From contig CALKCK010000004.1 in NCBI GenBank assembly GCA_938083195.1, positions 62,001 through 126,000 on the forward strand: a stretch of 64,000 nucleotides of DNA, given 5' to 3'. The notes below the pieces were generated by a model, which was not told the origin of the DNA, ran no database searches, and saw only the letters and a list, made by a program, of their open reading frames with translations. The stretch is from an uncultured Pirellulaceae bacterium. Lineage in GTDB: Bacteria; Planctomycetota; Planctomycetia; Pirellulales; Pirellulaceae. This document shows positions 24,199 through 59,116 of the stretch, piece after piece (positions within the stretch are counted from its first letter, which is position 1; each line of letters opens with the position of its first letter). Both the position numbers and the translations under genes were made by a program.

Positions 24199-25800
24199 TC
24201 ACACCTGTAAAACACCCGTTCTGAAGGGCTCATCGTCTGCGTGTCGCGTAACTGTCTTGAGGGATTGGATCAGAGTTTTTCGTGTTTCTGAAGGGTTGAT
24301 GATTCCATCGACCCAGAGTCTGCCGGCGGCATAACGGATATCTGTCGAAGTGTCATAAGCCGATTGGACTTTATCTCGTAAAGCCTCCATTTCCTTGGCA
24401 TCAGGTTCTTGCCCGGCCCGTTTAAGCGCGGCGATGTTGATGTCAAGAATAACCTTCGCTGCCTGTTTTCCTCCCATAACGGCATAGCGAGCGTTGGGCC
24501 ATGCGTAGATAAAACGTGGATCAAACGCCTTTCCACACATTGCATAATTTCCCGCGCCGTAACTACCACCTGTAATGATCGTAATTTTAGGTACGCGGCT
24601 ATTGGAGATAACGTTGACTACTTTCGCACCAGCTCGAATGATACCTGCTTGTTCACTATCTCTTCCAACCATGAACCCCATCACGTCTTGTAGGAAAATG
24701 AGGGGCGTCCAGGTCTGATTGCAGTCCATGATGAATCGTGCTTCTTTGTCGGCACTGTCGTGATAAATCACGCCTCCGTACTGCATGCCTTCCTTTTCAG
24801 ATTTCACAACGGTCCGTTGGTTTGCCACGATTCCGACGTGGTGCCCTCCAATTTTTGCATAGCCGCAAACAATTGTTTGTCCGTATTCGGCTTTGTATTC
24901 TTGGAAGGAACTGCCGTCCACGAGGAACTGAATCAGGTCTCGCACGTCATAGCGAGATTGCGGATCCATGGGGATTTTGTCGTAGATTTTTTCGGAGTCC
25001 TCGGAGGGCTCGACCGACGTGTCGCAACGGAATTCACGAGCCGTAGGATCCTCAGGCAGCATGTCAACCAGGGATCGTAATCGAGCGATGGCAGCGTCGT
25101 CATCCGGCTCTTTAAAGTCGATCGTACCGCTGATTGCAGCGTGCATCGCGGCGCCGCCGAGTTCTTCAGATGAAACTTCCTGGCCAATTGCTGATTTAAC
25201 GAGTGCTGGCCCGGCGAGATAGAGTCCGCTTCCTTCGGTCATGACGAGTTTGTCACAGAGCACCGGCAAATATCCCCCGCCAGCAACGCAATTCCCCATG
25301 ATTGCTGCGAGTTGTGGAACTCCCATCGCTGAAATGACAGCGTTGTTCCGAAAGATCCGACCAAAATCATCTTCGTCTGGAAAAATTTCATCTTGGAGTG
25401 GTAGGAAAACACCTGCGGAATCAACCAAGTAGACCAGCGGGACTCGGCACTTCATGGCGATACGTTGTGCCCTAAGAACCTTCTTGCAGGTCATTGGAAA
25501 AAACGCGCCCGCCTTAATCGTAGCGTCATTGGCGATAATCATTACGGTCCGTCCGGAGACCGAACCCAGGCCACAGATCACGCCGGCGGATTTCGCCCCG
25601 CCCCAGTCGGAGTACATTTCCCAGCCGGCCCAGAGCCCAATTTCTTGCCAACTGGAAGGATCGTCCAAGAGTTTGGAGATCCGTTCTCTAGCGGTGAGTC
25701 GCTCTTTTTTATGTTGACGCTCAATCGCACGCAGGCCTCCGCCTAATTCAATGTCAGCCTGTTCGGAATCGAATCCATCAATTAATTCTTGCCAGTTCAT
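24199..25800 (-). CDS. Acyl-CoA carboxylase beta subunit (carboxyltransferase; methylcrotonyl-CoA or propionyl-CoA type)
   Basis: The protein has 533 residues with the two crotonase-fold halves of a biotin-dependent carboxyltransferase. The N-terminal ERQHKKERLTARERISKLLD, the oxyanion region GGYLPVLCDKLVMTEGSG, and C-terminal MGFMVGRDSEQAGIIRAGAK and GSYGAGNYAMCGKAFDPRF match methylcrotonyl-CoA carboxylase beta subunits more closely than propionyl-CoA ones. It transfers CO2 from carboxybiotin to an acyl-CoA. The partner subunit with biotin carboxylase and biotin carrier is not in the window. It lies about 70 bp downstream of the acyl-CoA dehydrogenase on the same strand, consistent with leucine or branched acyl-CoA breakdown. 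Confidence 0.88.
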   Translation of the reverse strand: MNWQELIDGFDSEQADIELGGGLRAIERQHKKERLTARERISKLLDDPSSWQEIGLWAGWEMYSDWGGAKSAGVICGLGSVSGRTVMIIANDATIKAGAFFPMTCKKVLRAQRIAMKCRVPLVYLVDSAGVFLPLQDEIFPDEDDFGRIFRNNAVISAMGVPQLAAIMGNCVAGGGYLPVLCDKLVMTEGSGLYLAGPALVKSAIGQEVSSEELGGAAMHAAISGTIDFKEPDDDAAIARLRSLVDMLPEDPTAREFRCDTSVEPSEDSEKIYDKIPMDPQSRYDVRDLIQFLVDGSSFQEYKAEYGQTIVCGYAKIGGHHVGIVANQRTVVKSEKEGMQYGGVIYHDSADKEARFIMDCNQTWTPLIFLQDVMGFMVGRDSEQAGIIRAGAKVVNVISNSRVPKITIITGGSYGAGNYAMCGKAFDPRFIYAWPNARYAVMGGKQAAKVILDINIAALKRAGQEPDAKEMEALRDKVQSAYDTSTDIRYAAGRLWVDGIINPSETRKTLIQSLKTVTRHADDEPFRTGVLQV

Positions 25801-49967: not shown

Positions 49968-51197
49968 ATGACAGAAAAAATCAAGTTTATCCATTCATCA
50001 GATTTCCATCTGGATGAGCCGATTCGCGGCTTGCAGCAACTGCCCCAACCGCTTTTGGAGACACTCGCTGAAGCCCCTTACGTCGCGGCAGAGAGTGTTT
50101 TTGATACGGCGATCACTGAAAAAGTTGATTTCGTTTTACTTTCGGGAGGGCTTTGTAATCTCGAGCAATTAAGTGCGCGGGCAGTCGCATTTTTGGTGAA
50201 ACAATTTCAGCGATTGGAACAAAAAGATATTTTCGTTTATTGGGCTGGAGCGAAAGAAGACTCCGCTGATCAATGGCCGGGCGCTATCAAGCTGCCACGT
50301 AACGTAATTCAGTTTCATCCTCGTTCTGTAGAGCACGTGGACTTTCTAAAAGAAAATGCCGCATTAGTAAGAGTCATTGGGGTGGGGTGTGATTCCAAGC
50401 CCGTGGCGAGCGACCTGTTGGGGTGTGTTGAGGACGATGTCTTTAACATTGTTTTGGCTCACGCTGACGCTGACGTCACTGCCTTCGACAGCGATGCGAT
50501 TGATTACTGGGCGTTCGGTGGGCGAGCGGAATCCTTGACGGAAGAATACGAAAATTCGGTTATGGTTTTTCCAGGGACTCCGCAGTCCCGAGAGTTTCAC
50601 TCGGGAGCACCCAGTGGATTTAAATTGGTGAAACTGAATCGGACTAGGAAGACCAACGTCCGCACGATTAGATCAGATCGCGTCCACTGGTGTTCACCAT
50701 TCGCCGACATACAGCATCCGATGGATCTGGATGACGCGAGGAACCAATTGGGTGAGCTTGCGTTGCAGCTTGCAGGTGAACATTCTGAGCAAACCATTCT
50801 TTGCCAGTGGCAGCTTGCGATGAGTGGAGAGGGGTCGGTTAACCGCGATTGCGGTATTGAGTGGCGAGCAGCGATGTTGAAATGGTTGCGAGCTGAATTT
50901 GGAATGTCCGGTAATGGCCTGTGGTCGATTTGCATTGACGAGCGGCCTTCAGACGATCACCCCAGTAAAGGATATGACGAAGAAACCTTGCTTGGGGAGT
51001 ACCTCAGAGCTGTTGGGCGTTACCAGAGTGACAGTGAGTTGCGATTGAATTTACGAAATTATTTAAAAGATGATGTGCCACGTTGGGAAACTGATGGATT
51101 GGCAATAGTCAATGAACAACAGCGAGCTGAAATTTTGTCAAAGGCGTCTTTGTTAGGCGTGGATTGTCTAGGAGGCCAAGACGGCCCGGCGGTGTGA
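49968..51197 (+). CDS. Degenerate SbcD/YhaO-like metallophosphatase-fold protein
   Basis: The 409-residue protein starts like SbcD/Mre11/YhaO (IKFIHSSDFHLDEP, D12 and H14). The later metal motifs are broken: the GDxxD motif reads LLSGGLCN (57-64), GNHD reads WAGAKED (92-98), and the distal GHxH reads YWAFGGRAE (180-188). One histidine survives in VLAHADAD (H165). A working two-metal nuclease site is therefore unlikely, and the protein may serve as a structural partner. It lies 76 bp before a YhaN/SbcC-like ATPase on the same strand, the normal partnership for this family, so a DNA-repair-type complex is the natural setting. Confidence 0.78.
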   Translation: MTEKIKFIHSSDFHLDEPIRGLQQLPQPLLETLAEAPYVAAESVFDTAITEKVDFVLLSGGLCNLEQLSARAVAFLVKQFQRLEQKDIFVYWAGAKEDSADQWPGAIKLPRNVIQFHPRSVEHVDFLKENAALVRVIGVGCDSKPVASDLLGCVEDDVFNIVLAHADADVTAFDSDAIDYWAFGGRAESLTEEYENSVMVFPGTPQSREFHSGAPSGFKLVKLNRTRKTNVRTIRSDRVHWCSPFADIQHPMDLDDARNQLGELALQLAGEHSEQTILCQWQLAMSGEGSVNRDCGIEWRAAMLKWLRAEFGMSGNGLWSICIDERPSDDHPSKGYDEETLLGEYLRAVGRYQSDSELRLNLRNYLKDDVPRWETDGLAIVNEQQRAEILSKASLLGVDCLGGQDGPAV

Positions 51198-51273
51198 TTG
51201 GTGTTGGCGTTTTGACACGTCATTGTTGCAGATGGTGAAGACAAAATTACAACTGCGTTAAAGGAGTTCCGCG

Positions 51274-54200
51274 GTGAAAATAAACGATCTTGAAGTGGAT
51301 GGGTTTGGCGTCTGGAAAGGGCTTGAAGTCGAGCAAGTTTCCGATGAGCTAACGGTATTCTGCGGTTATAACGAAGCGGGCAAAACAACGCTGATGCAGT
51401 TCGTGCGTTCGATGATGTTTGGTTTTTCTTCGCCACGGCTGGAAAAATACTCCCCACCTGTTTACGGAGGATTAGCGGGTGGATCCATTGGTTTGTCTAC
51501 CTCTGTAGGCAGTTTTGAGGTGCAACGCCACGTCGATCCAAGTCATTGCCAGGATCCTGTGGGAGACCTCGTGGTGATCGATAGCCATGACGGAGCGGTA
51601 CACGGTCGAAATAAACTCCAGTCACTGTTGGGAGACATCGACGAATCAATCTTCACAAATGTGTTTGCGATTGGTCTCCAAGAGATTCAAGAACTAGGGG
51701 CACTCAATAGCACTGCTGCCGCTGACCAGTTATATAAATTGGCCAGCGGTTTGGATCGCGTTTCTTTGGTTGACGTAATGCGTAATCTTACCCAACGTAG
51801 AGATGCCATTTGGTCTGGGCCAAATGGGGTTCGGTCAAGGCTTGCGATTCTCGGTGAAGAAAGGCAGCTGCTTTTAAAAGAGGTGGAAGCGTTAAAGCAG
51901 AGATCCAAGACTTATTCATTGATGGCAAATAAGGTTATCGAAGTCGGATATCGTTTGGAGGAGCTTGCGGATTCGTTGAAAGAAAATGATCGGCAATCTC
52001 GTGTTTTGGAAGTGGCGATTCAAATTTCGGAACGTTGGCAACATCGAGTTTCAATCGCGCAGCAGATCCAAGAATTTGGAACGCTGCCAGAACGAGACAA
52101 TGTTTCGATCACAGAACTTGACAGGATCAACGAAGAAATCGCCCATCAGCGAGAGCGGATCGAGAATTTTCGCGATCAACGGCTGGAAATCAAAAAGGAT
52201 GGAATGGCATTGCCAATCAAGCCGCTCCTTTGGTCTCAAAAGGCTCGCGTCGAGGCTCTCGCGGAGCATACACCCTGGATTGAATCGTTACAGCGACAGT
52301 CTCTGCGCTTAGATGCAGAAATAGATCAAATTGAAAACAGCCTCGTTGGTGAGGTCGATGGTCTTGGAGAGCAGTTGAAGATTAAGGCAAGTGATATTCG
52401 CGGCCTTGGGAATCGGGGACTTGCCTCGCTGGAACTAACTGGTCGGAAACTACAGGATCAGGAAGATGTAATCATTCAGTTAGAGCACGATTTTGAAAAG
52501 ACTGAATTTGATTTAGGGCAGCACGAGGAACGCTTGGGGACGAGCATAGCTCGCCAAAGCACATCTGAGTCGCTCGAAGAGACTGGCAAACAGGTGAACC
52601 GGTTGCGACGCCGAATTGAGTTGGAACAAAAAATCGACAAGCTTAACCGTGGAAGAATGGAGTTGGAGCGGGATGTTGATTCAGTAGTGACAGAACAGGT
52701 TCTCCCACTTGAAAAGTTATCCATCGTCGGGGTTACCTTTATTATTGGTGTGGTACTGCTGGGTTTCGGTTTGATTGATGCCGTCTCGGGGGGAAGTTGG
52801 ATCAGCCAAACATCGACGAACATGGGGATCGTTTTCGTCTTTTTAGGAACGATCGCAGGCGTTGTCGCGATGGGACTAAAGTACCACTGGGAAGGTCAGG
52901 CGAAAGAAGATTTAGAGGATTTCCGACACCAAATTGAAATTGTTCGGCAGCAGCTTAAGCGAGCCAAGGTGGAGCGTACTGAGCTCGACCGTCAACTTCC
53001 TGAGAACGTTAAGGGGCAGTGGGAGTTGGCACTTTCAGATACAGAAAGTCGCTTGGAGAGACTCGAGGAGTTGGTTCCACTGGAAGGGCGAGTTTTAACC
53101 GCCAGAGCGAATCAAGATGAGTTGAGGCGACGTATTGCCACGCAGGAACTCGAAGTTGAGAAAACGAGTAAACAGTGGAAGGCAAGTTTGAGAGCTGCTG
53201 GATTGCCTGACGTTTTGCAACCTTATCAACTTCGTGAGATTGTACAGCGGGCTGATCGAATTTCGGGAATCAGTGACCGTTTAGATCATTTAAAGGCAGA
53301 GCAAATTGAGCGAAGGCGTGAACTGGAGAGTTTGAATTTGAGAATCGATCAAACGCTTCAGGAATCGGGGGTTCAATATGATGGAACGGAACTGATCGAC
53401 CGGATTAATCATTTAGGCCGTTGCATTAATGAGCAGCGTGGATTGGTGCAACGCCGCCGCGAATTCACTCAGCGGTATCGGACACTGAAAGCTAAATTTG
53501 AAAAAGCGAAGCGTGAATTAGACCGACTGCTCGGCCAAAAACAGAGATTACTTTCGCTTGTGGGAGCGGAAACCGAAGCAGAGTATCGTGAGTTTGACTC
53601 AGAGTTGGTGCGTCGTGATGCATTGATTGAGAATCGAGAACACTTAAGCCAACAAATTGATGCCGCCTTGGGGCGAAATCATACTGAATCACAAATCGAA
53701 CAGCTATACGAGGAATTCGGATCTGCTGGATTGGAAAACGCTTGGGAATCCGTTCAGTCTCAGATGGATAGTGCTCGCGAGCGACAAACTCAATTCCAGC
53801 AAGAATCTGCAGGTCTTCACCAGGAAATCAAAGTGATGGGCGAAGATAAAGGGATGGCACTAGCGAGATTGAAACTGGAAGCAGCCGAAACCGAAATTGC
53901 GGCACTTAAAAAGGAGTGGCAGGTGCTTGCTGCCAGTTCAACCATGTTGGAAGTGATTCGAGAAAGTTATGAATCAAAACGTCAGCCGGAAACGCTTAAA
54001 GAGGCATCTGGTTTTCTGGCTAAGCTGACAGAAGGTACCTATGTACGCATCTGGACCAAGTTAATTGGAGAGGAGTTGTTGGTTGATTCCAAGGATGGCG
54101 AGACGATTTCGGTAGATAAATTAAGTCGGGGTACAAGAGAAGCGGTCTATTTGAGTTTGAGATTGGCTTTGGTAGGAGCCTATGCGAGACGCGGATCCGT

Positions 54201-54747
54201 GGTGCCTATGGTTCTCGATGATGTGCTAGTAAATTTTGATGGCCGCCGAATCCAGGCGGCGGCAGAAGTGCTGTGCGAGTTCTCTAAGCAAGGTCACCAA
54301 ATACTTATGTTCACCTGCCATGACCATATTCGTGAAGTATTCCATAGCCTTGCGGCGGACGTGAGAATACTTCCAGATCATCGAGAGGTAGTGGAATCAA
54401 AAGCAATTCCAGTTCGGTACGAAAATTTTGAAAAAACTGAGCAACAGCCTGAGTTCGAAAAATTTAAACCCAAATTAATGCCCGAAAGTGATTTGGTGAG
54501 TACGGATGTTATGGAACCAAATGGGATTCCAGTCGAATACGTTGAGTATGCATCGACGAACGTTCGAATTAATCCCGAGCAATATGACTCTGAGCTAGAG
54601 TTTGAACTTGCCGTGGTGGCATCGGATCAAAAGCGAGAGCAGAATTATTTAGGTGATCCTGCTTTTGAAGGCGACCATTCGATTTTACCAATGGAAATCT
54701 CAGCTGACGAAGATTTTTGGACAAAGCCTGCATCGTCATTAGACTAA
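51274..54747 (+). CDS. YhaN/SbcC-like AAA ATPase with coiled coils and central membrane hairpin
   Basis: The 1157-residue protein begins with an SMC/SbcC-type head: Walker A GYNEAGKTT (31-39). Long coiled coils follow, interrupted near residues 480-545 by two hydrophobic helices (VTFIIGVVLLGFGLI and IVFVFLGTIAGVVAMGL). The second half-head has the ABC signature LSRGTREAV (about 948) and Walker B VPMVLDDVLVNFD (about 977). The layout matches Bacillus YhaN, a partner of the nuclease YhaO. The last ~120 residues (after RILPDHREVV) form an acidic tail not expected in YhaN. The start GTG at 51274 follows AAGGAG. The mate encoded upstream lacks most metal ligands, so the complex may bind rather than cut DNA. 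Confidence 0.83.
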   Translation: MKINDLEVDGFGVWKGLEVEQVSDELTVFCGYNEAGKTTLMQFVRSMMFGFSSPRLEKYSPPVYGGLAGGSIGLSTSVGSFEVQRHVDPSHCQDPVGDLVVIDSHDGAVHGRNKLQSLLGDIDESIFTNVFAIGLQEIQELGALNSTAAADQLYKLASGLDRVSLVDVMRNLTQRRDAIWSGPNGVRSRLAILGEERQLLLKEVEALKQRSKTYSLMANKVIEVGYRLEELADSLKENDRQSRVLEVAIQISERWQHRVSIAQQIQEFGTLPERDNVSITELDRINEEIAHQRERIENFRDQRLEIKKDGMALPIKPLLWSQKARVEALAEHTPWIESLQRQSLRLDAEIDQIENSLVGEVDGLGEQLKIKASDIRGLGNRGLASLELTGRKLQDQEDVIIQLEHDFEKTEFDLGQHEERLGTSIARQSTSESLEETGKQVNRLRRRIELEQKIDKLNRGRMELERDVDSVVTEQVLPLEKLSIVGVTFIIGVVLLGFGLIDAVSGGSWISQTSTNMGIVFVFLGTIAGVVAMGLKYHWEGQAKEDLEDFRHQIEIVRQQLKRAKVERTELDRQLPENVKGQWELALSDTESRLERLEELVPLEGRVLTARANQDELRRRIATQELEVEKTSKQWKASLRAAGLPDVLQPYQLREIVQRADRISGISDRLDHLKAEQIERRRELESLNLRIDQTLQESGVQYDGTELIDRINHLGRCINEQRGLVQRRREFTQRYRTLKAKFEKAKRELDRLLGQKQRLLSLVGAETEAEYREFDSELVRRDALIENREHLSQQIDAALGRNHTESQIEQLYEEFGSAGLENAWESVQSQMDSARERQTQFQQESAGLHQEIKVMGEDKGMALARLKLEAAETEIAALKKEWQVLAASSTMLEVIRESYESKRQPETLKEASGFLAKLTEGTYVRIWTKLIGEELLVDSKDGETISVDKLSRGTREAVYLSLRLALVGAYARRGSVVPMVLDDVLVNFDGRRIQAAAEVLCEFSKQGHQILMFTCHDHIREVFHSLAADVRILPDHREVVESKAIPVRYENFEKTEQQPEFEKFKPKLMPESDLVSTDVMEPNGIPVEYVEYASTNVRINPEQYDSELEFELAVVASDQKREQNYLGDPAFEGDHSILPMEISADEDFWTKPASSLD

Positions 54748-54813
54748 ATAATCAGTCGTTCGGCAGATGGTTCTAGCAGTCAGGTGGCTGCTGTTCAAAA
54801 TAGGTTTCGGCAT

Positions 54814-55794
54814 TTAGCCGGCGTCGATTGTTTGCTGAAGTTCGGATAGTTTTTTTTCTGCTTCTTTGCGTACAGGCTCGATTTCGGTTTGATCGATCAG
54901 CTCGGTGAGCGTTTGGATTGCTCGTGTCTTTTTGCTTTTAGTGTTCGCTTGATTTGCGTTCTCGATGATTTTTGCTTCGCGTGCAAGCTGTTTGTTCTCC
55001 TTGAGCGTATGTTTCTTTTGAAACGCGGCGAGGTCAGATTTGACCAACTTGAGGGCGCCAAAATCCTGGCGAAGTGCCAAGTAACCAAGCATTGCTGTGA
55101 GCTTGGCATCTGCCTGGTCGGATTCTATTTGGCTTGCAAAGTCTTTCAATTGGTTTCGGACTTCGTCAGCAGTTTCGATGACTAGGCGGTTCACTCTCAA
55201 GGCTGGTTCAGAATAGCTTGGGATCTGCCCGGGTTCACCAATTTTACGAACGCGACTGATTGCTTTGATCGCAGATTCGAAATTTCCTTTTTCTTTTTCC
55301 TGGGTGAATTTGTTGGCTGCGTCAGTTAATGATTGTGCTTCTCGGGCAGACAAAATGCGTCCGGAATTCTGTAAAGCCGCAAGGAGCATGTTGGGTAGGT
55401 CCGGGCCGCGCAGAGAGCCAGATCGACCGTAGAGTGTTTCACCATCTGCCCGCACAATAAAGAGTTGTGGAATGCCATTGCCGTCGGGAGTGTGGTCGCG
55501 TCGCCATTGAGCGTACTCAGGAGAGCTGACATCAAGCTTGATAGGCACGAACTGTGCCACGAGGGGTGCAATTGACTGATCGGTGTTGAGGCGTTTCAGC
55601 AGTGCTGCACACGGCGGTCAGGTGCTTTGCCCAGCGATGGCAAAGATAGGACGGCCACTCGCTGCCGAGATCTGTTTGGCTTTGGTAAGGCTATCCGCAG
55701 CTACGTTGGTTTTCGTTTGAGCCGTGAGTGGCAGAGTGATGCCTGTGAAGATGGCAAGCATCGTTCCTAGTAAAAGGCGGTGACTTTTAAGCAT
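54814..55794 (-). CDS. Exported thioredoxin-like protein with in-frame UGA (probable selenoprotein)
   Basis: Read straight through, the frame codes for 326 residues. Residues 1-26 form a signal peptide (MLKSHRLLLGTMLAIF...PLTAQ). A thioredoxin-like domain follows. Its redox motif should read CPPC as in many DsbD/thioredoxin_7 proteins (SWCPPCKAL), but reads T-UGA-PPCAAL: the first cysteine codon is TGA at 55618-55620. Frame and homology continue on both sides (GRPIFAIAGQST before, AQFVPIKLDVSS and IPQLFIVRADGETLYG after). A helical region fills residues 120-326. The ATG at 55794 has GGA about 8 nt upstream. The likeliest reading is selenocysteine at residue 59 (UPPC); a nonsense mutation is the alternative. 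Confidence 0.75.
55618..55620 (-). other. In-frame UGA at the CxxC position (candidate Sec codon)
   Basis: TGA interrupts the thioredoxin-like gene exactly at the first cysteine of the motif. The next codons read CCG CCG TGT (Pro Pro Cys). A small hairpin, CAGC-ACT-GCTG, begins 11 nt after the UGA on the minus strand. This is close to where bacterial SECIS elements lie, but its match to a bacterial SECIS cannot be confirmed by eye. Confidence 0.6.
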
Positions 55795-55916
55795 TGTTTG
55801 TTCCAAGGAGAAAACGCTGACTCTATTTTTTAAAAGCAATTGAAGCACTCATGAATCATTTCCCAATCACATGATGAGTTGCGAAGGTGATCTTGAATGC
55901 TGCTGCGGGTAAGGAG

Positions 55917-57239
55917 TTACCAACCAGTGCGATACGCCGGAGCGAGAAGTGCATTGGCTTCCTTTACTGACTTCGAGTTTCCTGTGAATTTACAGGTGGC
56001 GGCGTCCCAATCGAAGGTTTCTTGTGGCCAGCGGTTAATGACAGTGCCCATCAGAACGGCTTCGGTCAAAGGTCCAGCGTATTCGAACGGCGCGCCCGTT
56101 GATTCAATTTTTCCCTGAGCCGCATCGATCCACTGATGGAAGTGATTTCCACTTTCAACCGTTGGTGGTAATTTGCTCATTGGAGTTCCGTCGACTTGAT
56201 AAACCTGCGGATTGCCGATGTGAGGGAGTATCAGACTACCTTTAGTTCCAATGAAGACAGATCCTTGGCTGGGTAATTTAACGTTAGCTGGAATCCCTTC
56301 CACTTTCGATGGTCGCAAAGACCCGTTGTACCAAGTTAAGTTGAGCTCATCGGTCGTGTAAGGAGTTCCTCGGAATTTATAAACAACGTGGCTTAGGAGA
56401 GCGAAGTTATTTTTGAAGGGGCCGGGGCCGAGCGAGGTGCACTGGGTCGGCTCTTTAAGTTCCAAGGCGTTAAACACAGGGTCAATAATGTGGCAACCCA
56501 TGTCACCTTGCGTACCCGTTCCGAATGCAAGCCATTTTCGCCAGTTGCTGCGATGATACCACCCTTCCACGTAAGGAAGCTTTTCGGACACGCCGCAGTA
56601 TAGATCCCAGTCGAGATGGGCTGGTGGTGGCGTGGGAGACTTTCCCTTCATTTCGCCGCCCCATCCTTTGCCTGACCAGCTGTGGACATCTTTTACGGTT
56701 CCAATCAATCCATTTTGAATCCATGAAACTGCAGTTCGATAAGCCGGATGAGCGTGAATTTGAATTCCCATTTGGGTTTTCAGATTAGGTTTTTTTGCCG
56801 CCTGTTCCGCAAGTAAACGACACTCGGCGATGTCGTGCGCCAAGGGTTTTTGTAAATAGACATGTTTGTCGTGTTCCATGGCCATCAGTGCGATCGGAGC
56901 GTGCATGTGGTCCGGCGTAGCGATGACCACAGCATCAAAATCGTCAGCAGAATCTTCAAACAGTAAGCGATAGTCTTGGAATTTTTTTATGTCTGTGCCC
57001 ATTGGGTCGACAATTTGGTGAAGGGACTGGTCTACATCACAAGCGGCTGTTAGTTCAAAATTTGGATGAGATATCATCCCTTTCAAATCTGCTTTGCCTC
57101 GGCCTCCAAATCCAATTGCGGCGATTCGAAAGTTTTTGGCTGTTTTGCGTTGAGCCCCAAAGACCATGCTTGGCGCGAGTGTCGCAATGGAAGCGGATCC
57201 TGCAGCGGCTTTAATAATTTGACGGCGATTGAGGCTCAT
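55917..57239 (-). CDS. Exported Gfo/Idh/MocA-family oxidoreductase
   Basis: The 440-residue protein opens with a Tat-type leader (NRRQIIKAAAGSASIATL). The Rossmann fold shows IAAIGFGGRGKADLKG for nucleotide binding and VVIATPDHMHAPIALMAM. The catalytic region has VYLQKPLAHDIAECRLLAEQA, where EKP of the family reads QKP, so the usual glutamate is glutamine. Members oxidise or epimerise sugars with NAD(P). Many planctomycete copies are exported as here and of unknown substrate. Next downstream on the strand (about 120 bp) is the thioredoxin-like gene, which may share its transcript. Confidence 0.9.
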   Translation of the reverse strand: MSLNRRQIIKAAAGSASIATLAPSMVFGAQRKTAKNFRIAAIGFGGRGKADLKGMISHPNFELTAACDVDQSLHQIVDPMGTDIKKFQDYRLLFEDSADDFDAVVIATPDHMHAPIALMAMEHDKHVYLQKPLAHDIAECRLLAEQAAKKPNLKTQMGIQIHAHPAYRTAVSWIQNGLIGTVKDVHSWSGKGWGGEMKGKSPTPPPAHLDWDLYCGVSEKLPYVEGWYHRSNWRKWLAFGTGTQGDMGCHIIDPVFNALELKEPTQCTSLGPGPFKNNFALLSHVVYKFRGTPYTTDELNLTWYNGSLRPSKVEGIPANVKLPSQGSVFIGTKGSLILPHIGNPQVYQVDGTPMSKLPPTVESGNHFHQWIDAAQGKIESTGAPFEYAGPLTEAVLMGTVINRWPQETFDWDAATCKFTGNSKSVKEANALLAPAYRTGW

Positions 57240-57421
57240 AAAGATCTCTTGCTAGTTTTTTAAATTGGTTATGAGAGTTCTCTTGATTTTAGAAGTATTT
57301 GATTTGAATTGCCACAATCAAGTTAGAACATCCGGCTGCAATCGGCAAGAAAGTCGCGGGACGGATCACGCTGCCTAGAATGCCTGATTTTCGTTGGTGG
57401 TTTAGAGAGAATCGTTTCGGG

Positions 57422-59116
57422 TTACGCTTTTTTTCGGCAGGAGTCGAGGAGGAACAGCGCGGTCGCGATGATTAGCATAATCATCGGGATAACGTCGCCA
57501 ATGGTTCGGTAGAGGCTCATCTGTTCGATAGGACGTACGAGTGTGCGGATCGCCCCGGGTTGTCGCCGCCCGCCAGTCTGAAGTAAGCGTCCGCACGAGT
57601 CGATTTCAGCTGATAGTCCCGTGTTGGCACAAACTAAATGAGTTTTTCGCATTTCTACTGCACGAAAAACATTGCAGGCCAAATGCAGATCCAAGCAGCT
57701 GGTGCCAAAAAACCAACCATCGTTGGTCATGTTAATTAGGACATCGGGTTCCTTGTTTTGGTTGGCAAGCGTATTGACTTGATTCCTAATAAAGTGGGGA
57801 ACCGTTGATTCAAAACAAATGTTGGGACTTAGATTGATTTCGTTTATTCTTATCGAGGCTGGCTCAGTTCCAGCATCGATCCCTCCACCGATGGGGGAGA
57901 TTTTTTTGATGATTGGAAACCAGTCAGATAGTGGGACGTACTCGCCAAACATGACAAGATGATTCTTATAGTACCTTGAATCTACGAGCCCATTATTGTT
58001 GATCAAAAAAGCAGATGCGAAATGGGTGTTTTGTTTTGGGTCAAGGGTGGAACCTCCAGTGAGAAGTGGCACGGAATTTTCACTAAGGTAGGAGGAGGAC
58101 GTTGCTTTCCTCCAAAATTCAGTTCGGAGTCTCGCGGCCGCTTGGCGAGTCATTTCTGGACTGAAGTCTGACAATAAATCTGTGTATCCGCTGAAAGCGG
58201 ATTCTGGCCAAACAATTAAATCTAAATCAGGCCATTTTTTTATTGCCGCTTGAGTTAAATCGATTTTTCGCTGACGGCCATCCACAAATTCCTCAGCCGT
58301 AATTGGTTGAAAAACAACATCATCGTTGGTTTGAATCAAAGCAATCGCCAACTCAGAATTATTTTTAAATGTTACGTCTTCACCGAGCTTTACGCGGCCG
58401 TACACAAGGGTCGCAATGAGGGTGAGGATCGCAGTGGCAATGGCCCATCTGCTTTGTCTCTTTAAATTTTCTGGAAAGATTGAAGATTGGTTAGGCTGTT
58501 GTTGGCTCTTGGCGATACACAGTTTTAATGCTGCCGTAATGCCAACGGAAACTAAGCTGATGACGAACGTAAGGGTGTAAGCGCCAAATATATCTGCAAC
58601 CTGAATGAGAATCGGAGTGCGATATTGAGTGTGGGATAAACAGACCATTGCCATGCCTGTTGCGAAGTTGCATCGGAACCATTCAATTCCAGTCCAGACG
58701 AGAGGAATCGCGAGCACAGGCGGGATTCGAAAGCGATGAATTAGGGAGCGGGCAATGCCAACCGACAAGGGAGTATAAATCGCCATGTAGGCGGAGACGG
58801 TTAGCCAACCAAGCCAGAGGGCTGGGTGAGGAATTGGAATAAAATAAAACGCAGAAAGCCAAAAGAGAAATCCGGCAAGGAAAAGTTGGCGATAGGGCCT
58901 TCGGCCGATAAGTGTTTTTGATTCTATCAACCAGATCAAAGGACATAGCGCAAGCCAACCTAGCCAGCTTAGCCCAACTGGTGGAAAGGCGAGCCACAGT
59001 AAGGTCATCGAAGACGCGGCAACAATGAAGGTCCTGAATCGCTCTTTAAAATGAGGGCGGGACGCTTCACCGTTAAGGCCGCCATCGGTTTTTGAAGTCG
59101 TCGTATGCTTGCTCAA
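57422..59116 (-). CDS. lnt: Apolipoprotein N-acyltransferase
   Basis: The 564-residue protein has seven or eight N-terminal membrane helices and a C-terminal nitrilase domain in the periplasm, as in Lnt. The catalytic triad is visible: E in LIVWPESAFSGY (about 304), K in YYKNHLVMFGEYVPL (about 382), and C in NICFESTVPHF (about 434). NMTNDGWFFGTSCLDLHLA matches the usual ND-GWF block. It adds the third acyl chain to lipoproteins, so this organism makes triacylated lipoproteins such as the cyclophilin at 3602. The gene lies 86 bp downstream of moeA on the same strand. Confidence 0.93.
   Translation of the reverse strand: MSKHTTTSKTDGGLNGEASRPHFKERFRTFIVAASSMTLLWLAFPPVGLSWLGWLALCPLIWLIESKTLIGRRPYRQLFLAGFLFWLSAFYFIPIPHPALWLGWLTVSAYMAIYTPLSVGIARSLIHRFRIPPVLAIPLVWTGIEWFRCNFATGMAMVCLSHTQYRTPILIQVADIFGAYTLTFVISLVSVGITAALKLCIAKSQQQPNQSSIFPENLKRQSRWAIATAILTLIATLVYGRVKLGEDVTFKNNSELAIALIQTNDDVVFQPITAEEFVDGRQRKIDLTQAAIKKWPDLDLIVWPESAFSGYTDLLSDFSPEMTRQAAARLRTEFWRKATSSSYLSENSVPLLTGGSTLDPKQNTHFASAFLINNNGLVDSRYYKNHLVMFGEYVPLSDWFPIIKKISPIGGGIDAGTEPASIRINEINLSPNICFESTVPHFIRNQVNTLANQNKEPDVLINMTNDGWFFGTSCLDLHLACNVFRAVEMRKTHLVCANTGLSAEIDSCGRLLQTGGRRQPGAIRTLVRPIEQMSLYRTIGDVIPMIMLIIATALFLLDSCRKKA

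Follow-up and report, generated by a model that had tools for sequence, protein, structure and literature searches.

The gene described here lies on the minus strand of the window, by which we mean the whole 64,000-nucleotide stretch of DNA that was analysed. The host, a marine planctomycete, is represented by a 4.8-Mb Pirellulaceae MAG of Mariniblastus type, and the closest named orthologues of the gene are found in Mariniblastus MAGs. The reading frame opens with an ATG at 55794, passes through an in-frame TGA at 55620-55618 (codon 59), and closes with a TAA at 54816-54814. When TGA is translated as selenocysteine (Sec, U), 267 sense codons follow it without any other stop up to that TAA, which confirms the intact frame and the T-UGA-Pro-Pro-Cys motif that had been noticed in the original prediction; the motif stands in the context S-T-U-P-P-C, and the product around the active site reads ...GRPIFAIAGQST-U-PPC-AALLKRL.... 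The span given in that prediction, 55540-55794, identified the correct gene but covered only its N-terminal part, as the full gene reaches 54814. A standard ORF caller divides the gene in two (55848-55618 and 55560-54814), just as had been anticipated for its annotation. The features of the gene and its predicted product are as follows.

54814..55794, minus strand: predicted exported thioredoxin-like selenoprotein gene, 326 aa through one UGA, complete.
55717..55794, minus strand: probable signal peptide, approximately residues 1-26, with cleavage near LTA-Q; basic n-region, hydrophobic core, and A-x-A-like site assigned by eye, and residues 1-31 with low pLDDT.
55618..55620, minus strand: putative Sec codon UGA, residue 59, first position of UxxC; TGA is invariant in 32 distinct homologous Sec genes and is TGC/TGT in Cys homologues.
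55609..55611, minus strand: Cys62, the putative resolving cysteine of U59-P-P-C62; invariant column in 26 sequences.
55360..55704, minus strand: thioredoxin domain, residues 31-145; AlphaFold model with pLDDT of ~90 and VIA-align matches.
54820..55347, minus strand: C-terminal all-helical, TPR-like region, residues 150-325; AlphaFold helices with pLDDT mostly >90 and weak BamD/YfiO-like profile matches.

The surrounding genes (window 49968-59116) encode an SbcD-like protein, a YhaN-like AAA ATPase, a Gfo/Idh oxidoreductase, and an apolipoprotein N-acyltransferase. This order is kept in six close relatives, with the SbcD-like gene in five of them, as far as the contigs reach; no such neighbours were seen around the gene in the two distant loci whose flanks are long, and the neighbourhood offers no functional hint. 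Across the window, the sole other in-frame TGA codon with a redox motif was an unsupported 96-codon candidate at 24799 on the minus strand.

The N-terminus of the protein is, judging from its sequence, a probable signal peptide, and the remainder was modelled with AlphaFold from 26 homologues (mean pLDDT of 88). The model places U59 between the strand at residues 50-55 and the helix at residues 60-71, and the 26-sequence alignment has further invariant columns at U/C59, Pro109 (putative cis-Pro), and Gly118. The thioredoxin domain matches PF13899 (Thioredoxin_7) at 34.4 bits, above the gathering cut-off of 27, and all 26 aligned family members match this profile with E-values up to 0.1; the match to PF13098 (thiol:disulfide interchange), at 16.7 bits, falls below its cut-off of 27. 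VIA-align, in which the matches concern the thioredoxin domain alone, returned AGR2 (Z of 13.0), ERp18 (12.6), and a (bacterial) disulphide isomerase (12.1). The best Foldseek E-value (2.2e-4) was to E. coli YbbN (CnoX), with a TM score of only 0.25. CnoX shares the order of a thioredoxin domain followed by helical repeats, but the arrangement probably differs, and the window protein is probably exported and carries a UxxC motif. An SHD1-like domain (PF03983), an odd partner for a thioredoxin, ends several distant homologues, and 5 of the 26 members match it (L033, L035, L036, L041, and L057). The product may be pictured as a putative exported thioredoxin-fold oxidoreductase with a helical TPR-like part, in which Sec59 would act as the attacking nucleophile and Cys62 as the resolving residue. 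From what other UxxC proteins do, it would be expected to act as a reductase or isomerase on exported proteins.

Homologues with UGA at codon 59 were collected as 32 distinct genes from the Pirellulales, and other relatives have Cys at that position. A UGA homologue is present in 23 of the 80 nearest genomes, and an order-wide search of 296 genomes contributed nine further Sec genes along with more Cys homologues; as the family sequences are mutually related, these counts of genes do not represent independent events. TGA occupies the identical alignment column in homologues whose genomes, more than 30 in number, were assembled independently, at amino acid identities from 90% to <30%, and the same column is TGC or TGT in L037, L038, L075, L082, L084, L090, and L092. 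The homologue alignment that had been suggested as a check therefore gives U or Cys at this column with the frame intact. Beyond the UGA, the codons are under purifying selection, with Ka of ~0.05-0.09 against Ks of ~0.8-1.4 for five close orthologues. A tree of Sec and Cys forms requires six changes between them, with several branches weak or long. Both forms occur together in G039.

The search for Sec machinery, also proposed with the original prediction, found all of the components in the host genome: selA (590 bits), selB (366 bits), selD (258 bits), and a tRNA-Sec with a UCA anticodon. These four genes lie on four separate contigs, and selD (L012, G000:C40:5264-6172, minus strand) follows an NADH-dehydrogenase-like domain in a single fused frame of 740 aa. 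Among the 80 nearest genomes, a tRNA-Sec scoring >60 bits is present in 21 of 23 with a UGA homologue versus 28 of 57 others, and the two UGA-bearing genomes without one are MAGs that are 80% and 71% complete. In five UGA-bearing MAGs selA is absent or partial, probably through incompleteness.

For the RNA, positions are numbered with the T of UGA as +1. The consensus bacterial SECIS element (bSECIS) has a loop of 3-9 nt, an upper stem of 4-16 bp, and 16-37 nt from UGA to loop; one of the first two bases of the loop is G, the next base is mostly G or U, and some putative elements are reported to fall outside this consensus (PMC13188914). A canonical SECIS at +16 to +37 was the candidate tried first; single-sequence hairpins are common in this region, and they have no shared loop motif. 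A scan of the 32 family genes for a G-loop hairpin with an unbroken stem of at least 5 bp found none at 16-37 nt in 19 genes, the window gene included, and nothing at that distance common to the family. Some members do have a G-loop hairpin there (for example, L031, L034, and L079), within the hairpin that we call SL1. The same scan placed a hairpin, SL2, at 64-65 nt in 29 of the 32 genes. In keeping with the bSECIS check suggested for 55540-55620, a Sec-specific RNA structure follows the UGA; its best SECIS candidate is displaced from the usual place to 64 nt, behind a second hairpin, which the original prediction could not foresee. The two elements are located as follows.

55568..55608, minus strand: SL1, the intervening hairpin, +13..+53, a proposed looped-out spacer; MFE fold and synonymous-shuffle z.
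55544..55558, minus strand (loop 55549-55553): SL2, GGCAC-AGUUC-GUGCC, +63..+77, the proposed SelB-binding SECIS; covariation, RNAalifold, and conservation in held-out genes.

SL2 pairs +63-67 with +73-77 and is recovered de novo by RNAalifold. Over the 32 Sec genes, 97.5% of cells are paired and 14 carry changes in both partners; covariation scores 0.373, versus 0.123 when shuffled (0/500) and at most 0.084 in slid controls. Compensation is readily seen in the stems, which read GGCAC/GUGCC in the window gene, CGUCACA/UGUGACG in L034, UGACACA/UGUGUCA in L048, and CGGGGCA/UGUCCCG in L030. In the pair that varies most, a second codon base is matched with the third base of a different codon, and this pairing persists despite amino acid change. 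SL2 was defined on 23 discovery genes, and the nine Sec genes found later served as a held-out set; all nine carry it (seven with 5/5 pairs and two with 4/5), versus 0-2 of 5 pairs in the Cys homologues (n=9). One Cys form, L082, encodes the same QFVPLK peptide and lacks the hairpin, and SL2 is therefore not explained by the protein sequence.

The SL2 loop is of 5 nt (or 3 nt), AGUUC in the window gene, with G69 invariant and U or G at position 70 in all 32 genes, and the stem is mostly of 5-10 bp. Its MFE is -8.0 kcal/mol in the window gene and from -7.7 to -15.4 in most members, with L033 (-4.2) and L036 (-6.9) as exceptions. Measured against the bSECIS model, SL2 agrees in loop size, stem, loop G, and MFE (<=-7.5 kcal/mol) and departs from it in spacing, its loop lying a linear 64 nt from the UGA rather than 16-37, with a conserved hairpin between, unlike the E. 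coli fdhF type.

The intervening region was assessed by folding-energy z scores, for which the shuffles redraw synonymous codons and keep the protein. In the SL1 window (+19..+54) the mean z is -1.78 for the discovery genes and -1.95 (SE 0.30) for the held-out Sec genes, versus +0.36 (0.29) for the Cys homologues; in the SL2 window (+58..+93) the corresponding values are -2.40, -2.42 (SE 0.22), and -0.39 (0.28). The lowest z belongs to the joint window +10..+87 (-2.7 discovery and -2.9 held-out), and windows between and past the two hairpins are near 0. The MFE fold of +13..+84 gives SL1 followed by SL2 in 31 of 32 Sec genes, in 0 of 9 Cys genes, and in 11.7% of synonymous shuffles, by criteria for SL1 that were chosen after folds had been seen. 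When SL1 is subtracted from the path, 16-24 nt separate the UGA from the SL2 loop; with the fold begun at +8 instead of +13, both hairpins are formed in 27 of 32 genes and the distance is 10-24 nt. The sequence and register of SL1 vary across genes while the effective distance is kept. Fixed-column covariation was looked for in SL1 and no single register was found, since the register shifts between lineages, and the support for SL1 is consequently thermodynamic, coming from the shuffle z and the fold architecture.

Two other selenoprotein families with ordinary spacing, encoded in the same genomes, provide an internal control for the displaced SL2. A DsbD-like gene (L060, G000:C43:15755-15985, minus strand) has an in-frame UGA in the C-terminal thioredoxin motif DWUPTC, and it and its relatives (L114-L126, L128, and L130) have a SECIS-like hairpin at a spacing of 24 in 15/15 cases, with loop CGUGU or AGUCU. 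A small UGWC thioredoxin, possibly a lipoprotein (L066, G000:C21:86096-86734, plus strand), and its relatives (L097-L104 and L111) have one at a spacing of 22 in 10/10, with loop AGUU or AGGU. With normal spacing and an SL2-type loop in both families, the host appears to use an ordinary SECIS elsewhere.

Taken with the Sec machinery and the U/Cys column in an intact frame, the Sec-specific RNA structure supports the selenoprotein reading of the original prediction, and from the sequence evidence the window gene is almost certainly a genuine selenoprotein gene. The ribosome would decode the UGA at codon 59 as Sec. That 31 of 32 folds contain both hairpins, at an effective distance of 16-24 nt close to that of the control families, leads us to propose that SL2 is the recruiter of SelB and SL1 a spacer. 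The short SL2 hairpin, with its apical loop of A-G-U-U type, would recruit SelB loaded with Sec-tRNA-Sec, and SL1 (~40-48 nt) would fold out, such that the path from UGA to SL2 is shortened to ~16-24 nt, the normal SECIS distance. It is likely on this sequence evidence that the signal is displaced, with SL2 rather than a hairpin at the usual distance recruiting SelB. To the explanation as a whole, a selenoprotein with a displaced SL2 signal and an SL1 spacer, we would assign a probability of roughly 0.78. The evidence also leans, with less assurance, toward the more general statement that a natural bSECIS can function 64 nt from its UGA with a conserved hairpin as a fold-out spacer restoring the normal distance.

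Two readings that deny Sec at this codon can be considered together. UGA is a stop in this code and the gene is called as two fragments, as would be seen with a nonsense mutation, a pseudogene, or a sequencing error of TGA for TGC/TGT. Chance or sequencing error is effectively ruled out by the retention of the TGA column in more than 30 genomes and by the low Ka/Ks after the UGA, and the Sec machinery and Sec-specific RNA structure speak likewise against a nonsense mutation or pseudogene, leaving this account extremely improbable. It is just as improbable that a reassigned code or a suppressor places Trp or some other residue at the UGA, for which no supporting evidence was found: the codon stands in the column of the catalytic Cys, tRNA-Sec(UCA), SelA, and SelB are present, and the RNA structure follows only the UGA-bearing members.

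The roles of the two hairpins might also be assigned differently. SL1 is Sec-specific by shuffle z, its apical loop at ~+31 to +36 lies at the canonical distance, and several members have G in its first loop positions, such that it could be the SECIS in genes like the three named above. It might then be SL1 that binds SelB as an ordinary SECIS, with SL2 auxiliary or serving something else; this seems quite unlikely, as the 19 genes without a G-loop hairpin with a 5-bp stem at 16-37 nt include the window gene and the SL1 loops have no common motif, whereas in the SL2 loop the G never varies and the base after it is U or G, the form of the two canonical families. It is also conceivable, if unlikely, that the two form one composite signal in which each is a binding site (for SelB, the ribosome, or some other factor), or that SL1 is a pausing element and not a spacer. 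Their shared Sec specificity and adjacency, and the z of the joint window being the lowest, would fit a composite signal, but the freedom of SL1 to vary in sequence and register is as expected of a spacer, unlike a protein-binding site.

We regard the gene as an apparently new UxxC thioredoxin-like selenoprotein gene with a probable novel form of bacterial SECIS. The catalogued UxxC thioredoxin-like selenoproteins (Trx PF00085; PF13098; GOS Trx-like 1-3) share the thioredoxin fold with Sec first, but in the present family the domain is Thioredoxin_7, extended by a helical TPR-like part and, in some members, by SHD1. None of the NCBIfam selenoprotein models tested is matched by the family at cut-off. 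One of them, trx7_PDZ_seleno (NF041199, cut-off of 300 bits), likewise combines Thioredoxin_7 with Sec but has a CxxU motif and a PDZ domain; the family falls well short of it, with 15.9 bits in L057, and the window protein does not match. The Thioredoxin_7 entry in the 2026 catalogue of prokaryotic selenoproteins is this Trx7/PDZ family with CxxU (PMC13188914). Planctomycete selenoproteins are mentioned in PMC4807772. The family is apparently uncatalogued; the GOS Trx-like clusters (PMC2398784) could hold marine members, and the candidates of PMC4807772 may include the family. Among open-licence papers, no bacterial SECIS was found that has long spacing or consists of two hairpins.

The family adds a selenoprotein for aquatic planctomycetes, a phylum hardly mentioned in selenoproteome surveys, and it offers a comparative case for what determines how far a bacterial SECIS lies from its UGA, in which a hairpin has seemingly been inserted and the effective distance kept. 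If the proposal is correct, the position of a bSECIS would be set by three-dimensional distance and not by linear spacing, and searches requiring 16-37 nt would overlook selenoproteins with displaced signals. As finders that need a G-loop hairpin at that distance would, judged by the present scan, miss 19/32 genes of this family, similar genes may hide elsewhere.

In G039, the Sec form (L033, UPPC) has SL2 and the Cys form (L090, CQPC) is without it. A diverged UGSC paralogue (L091, G069, C1:243968-244438, minus strand), in the same genome as L041, also has a displaced SL2.
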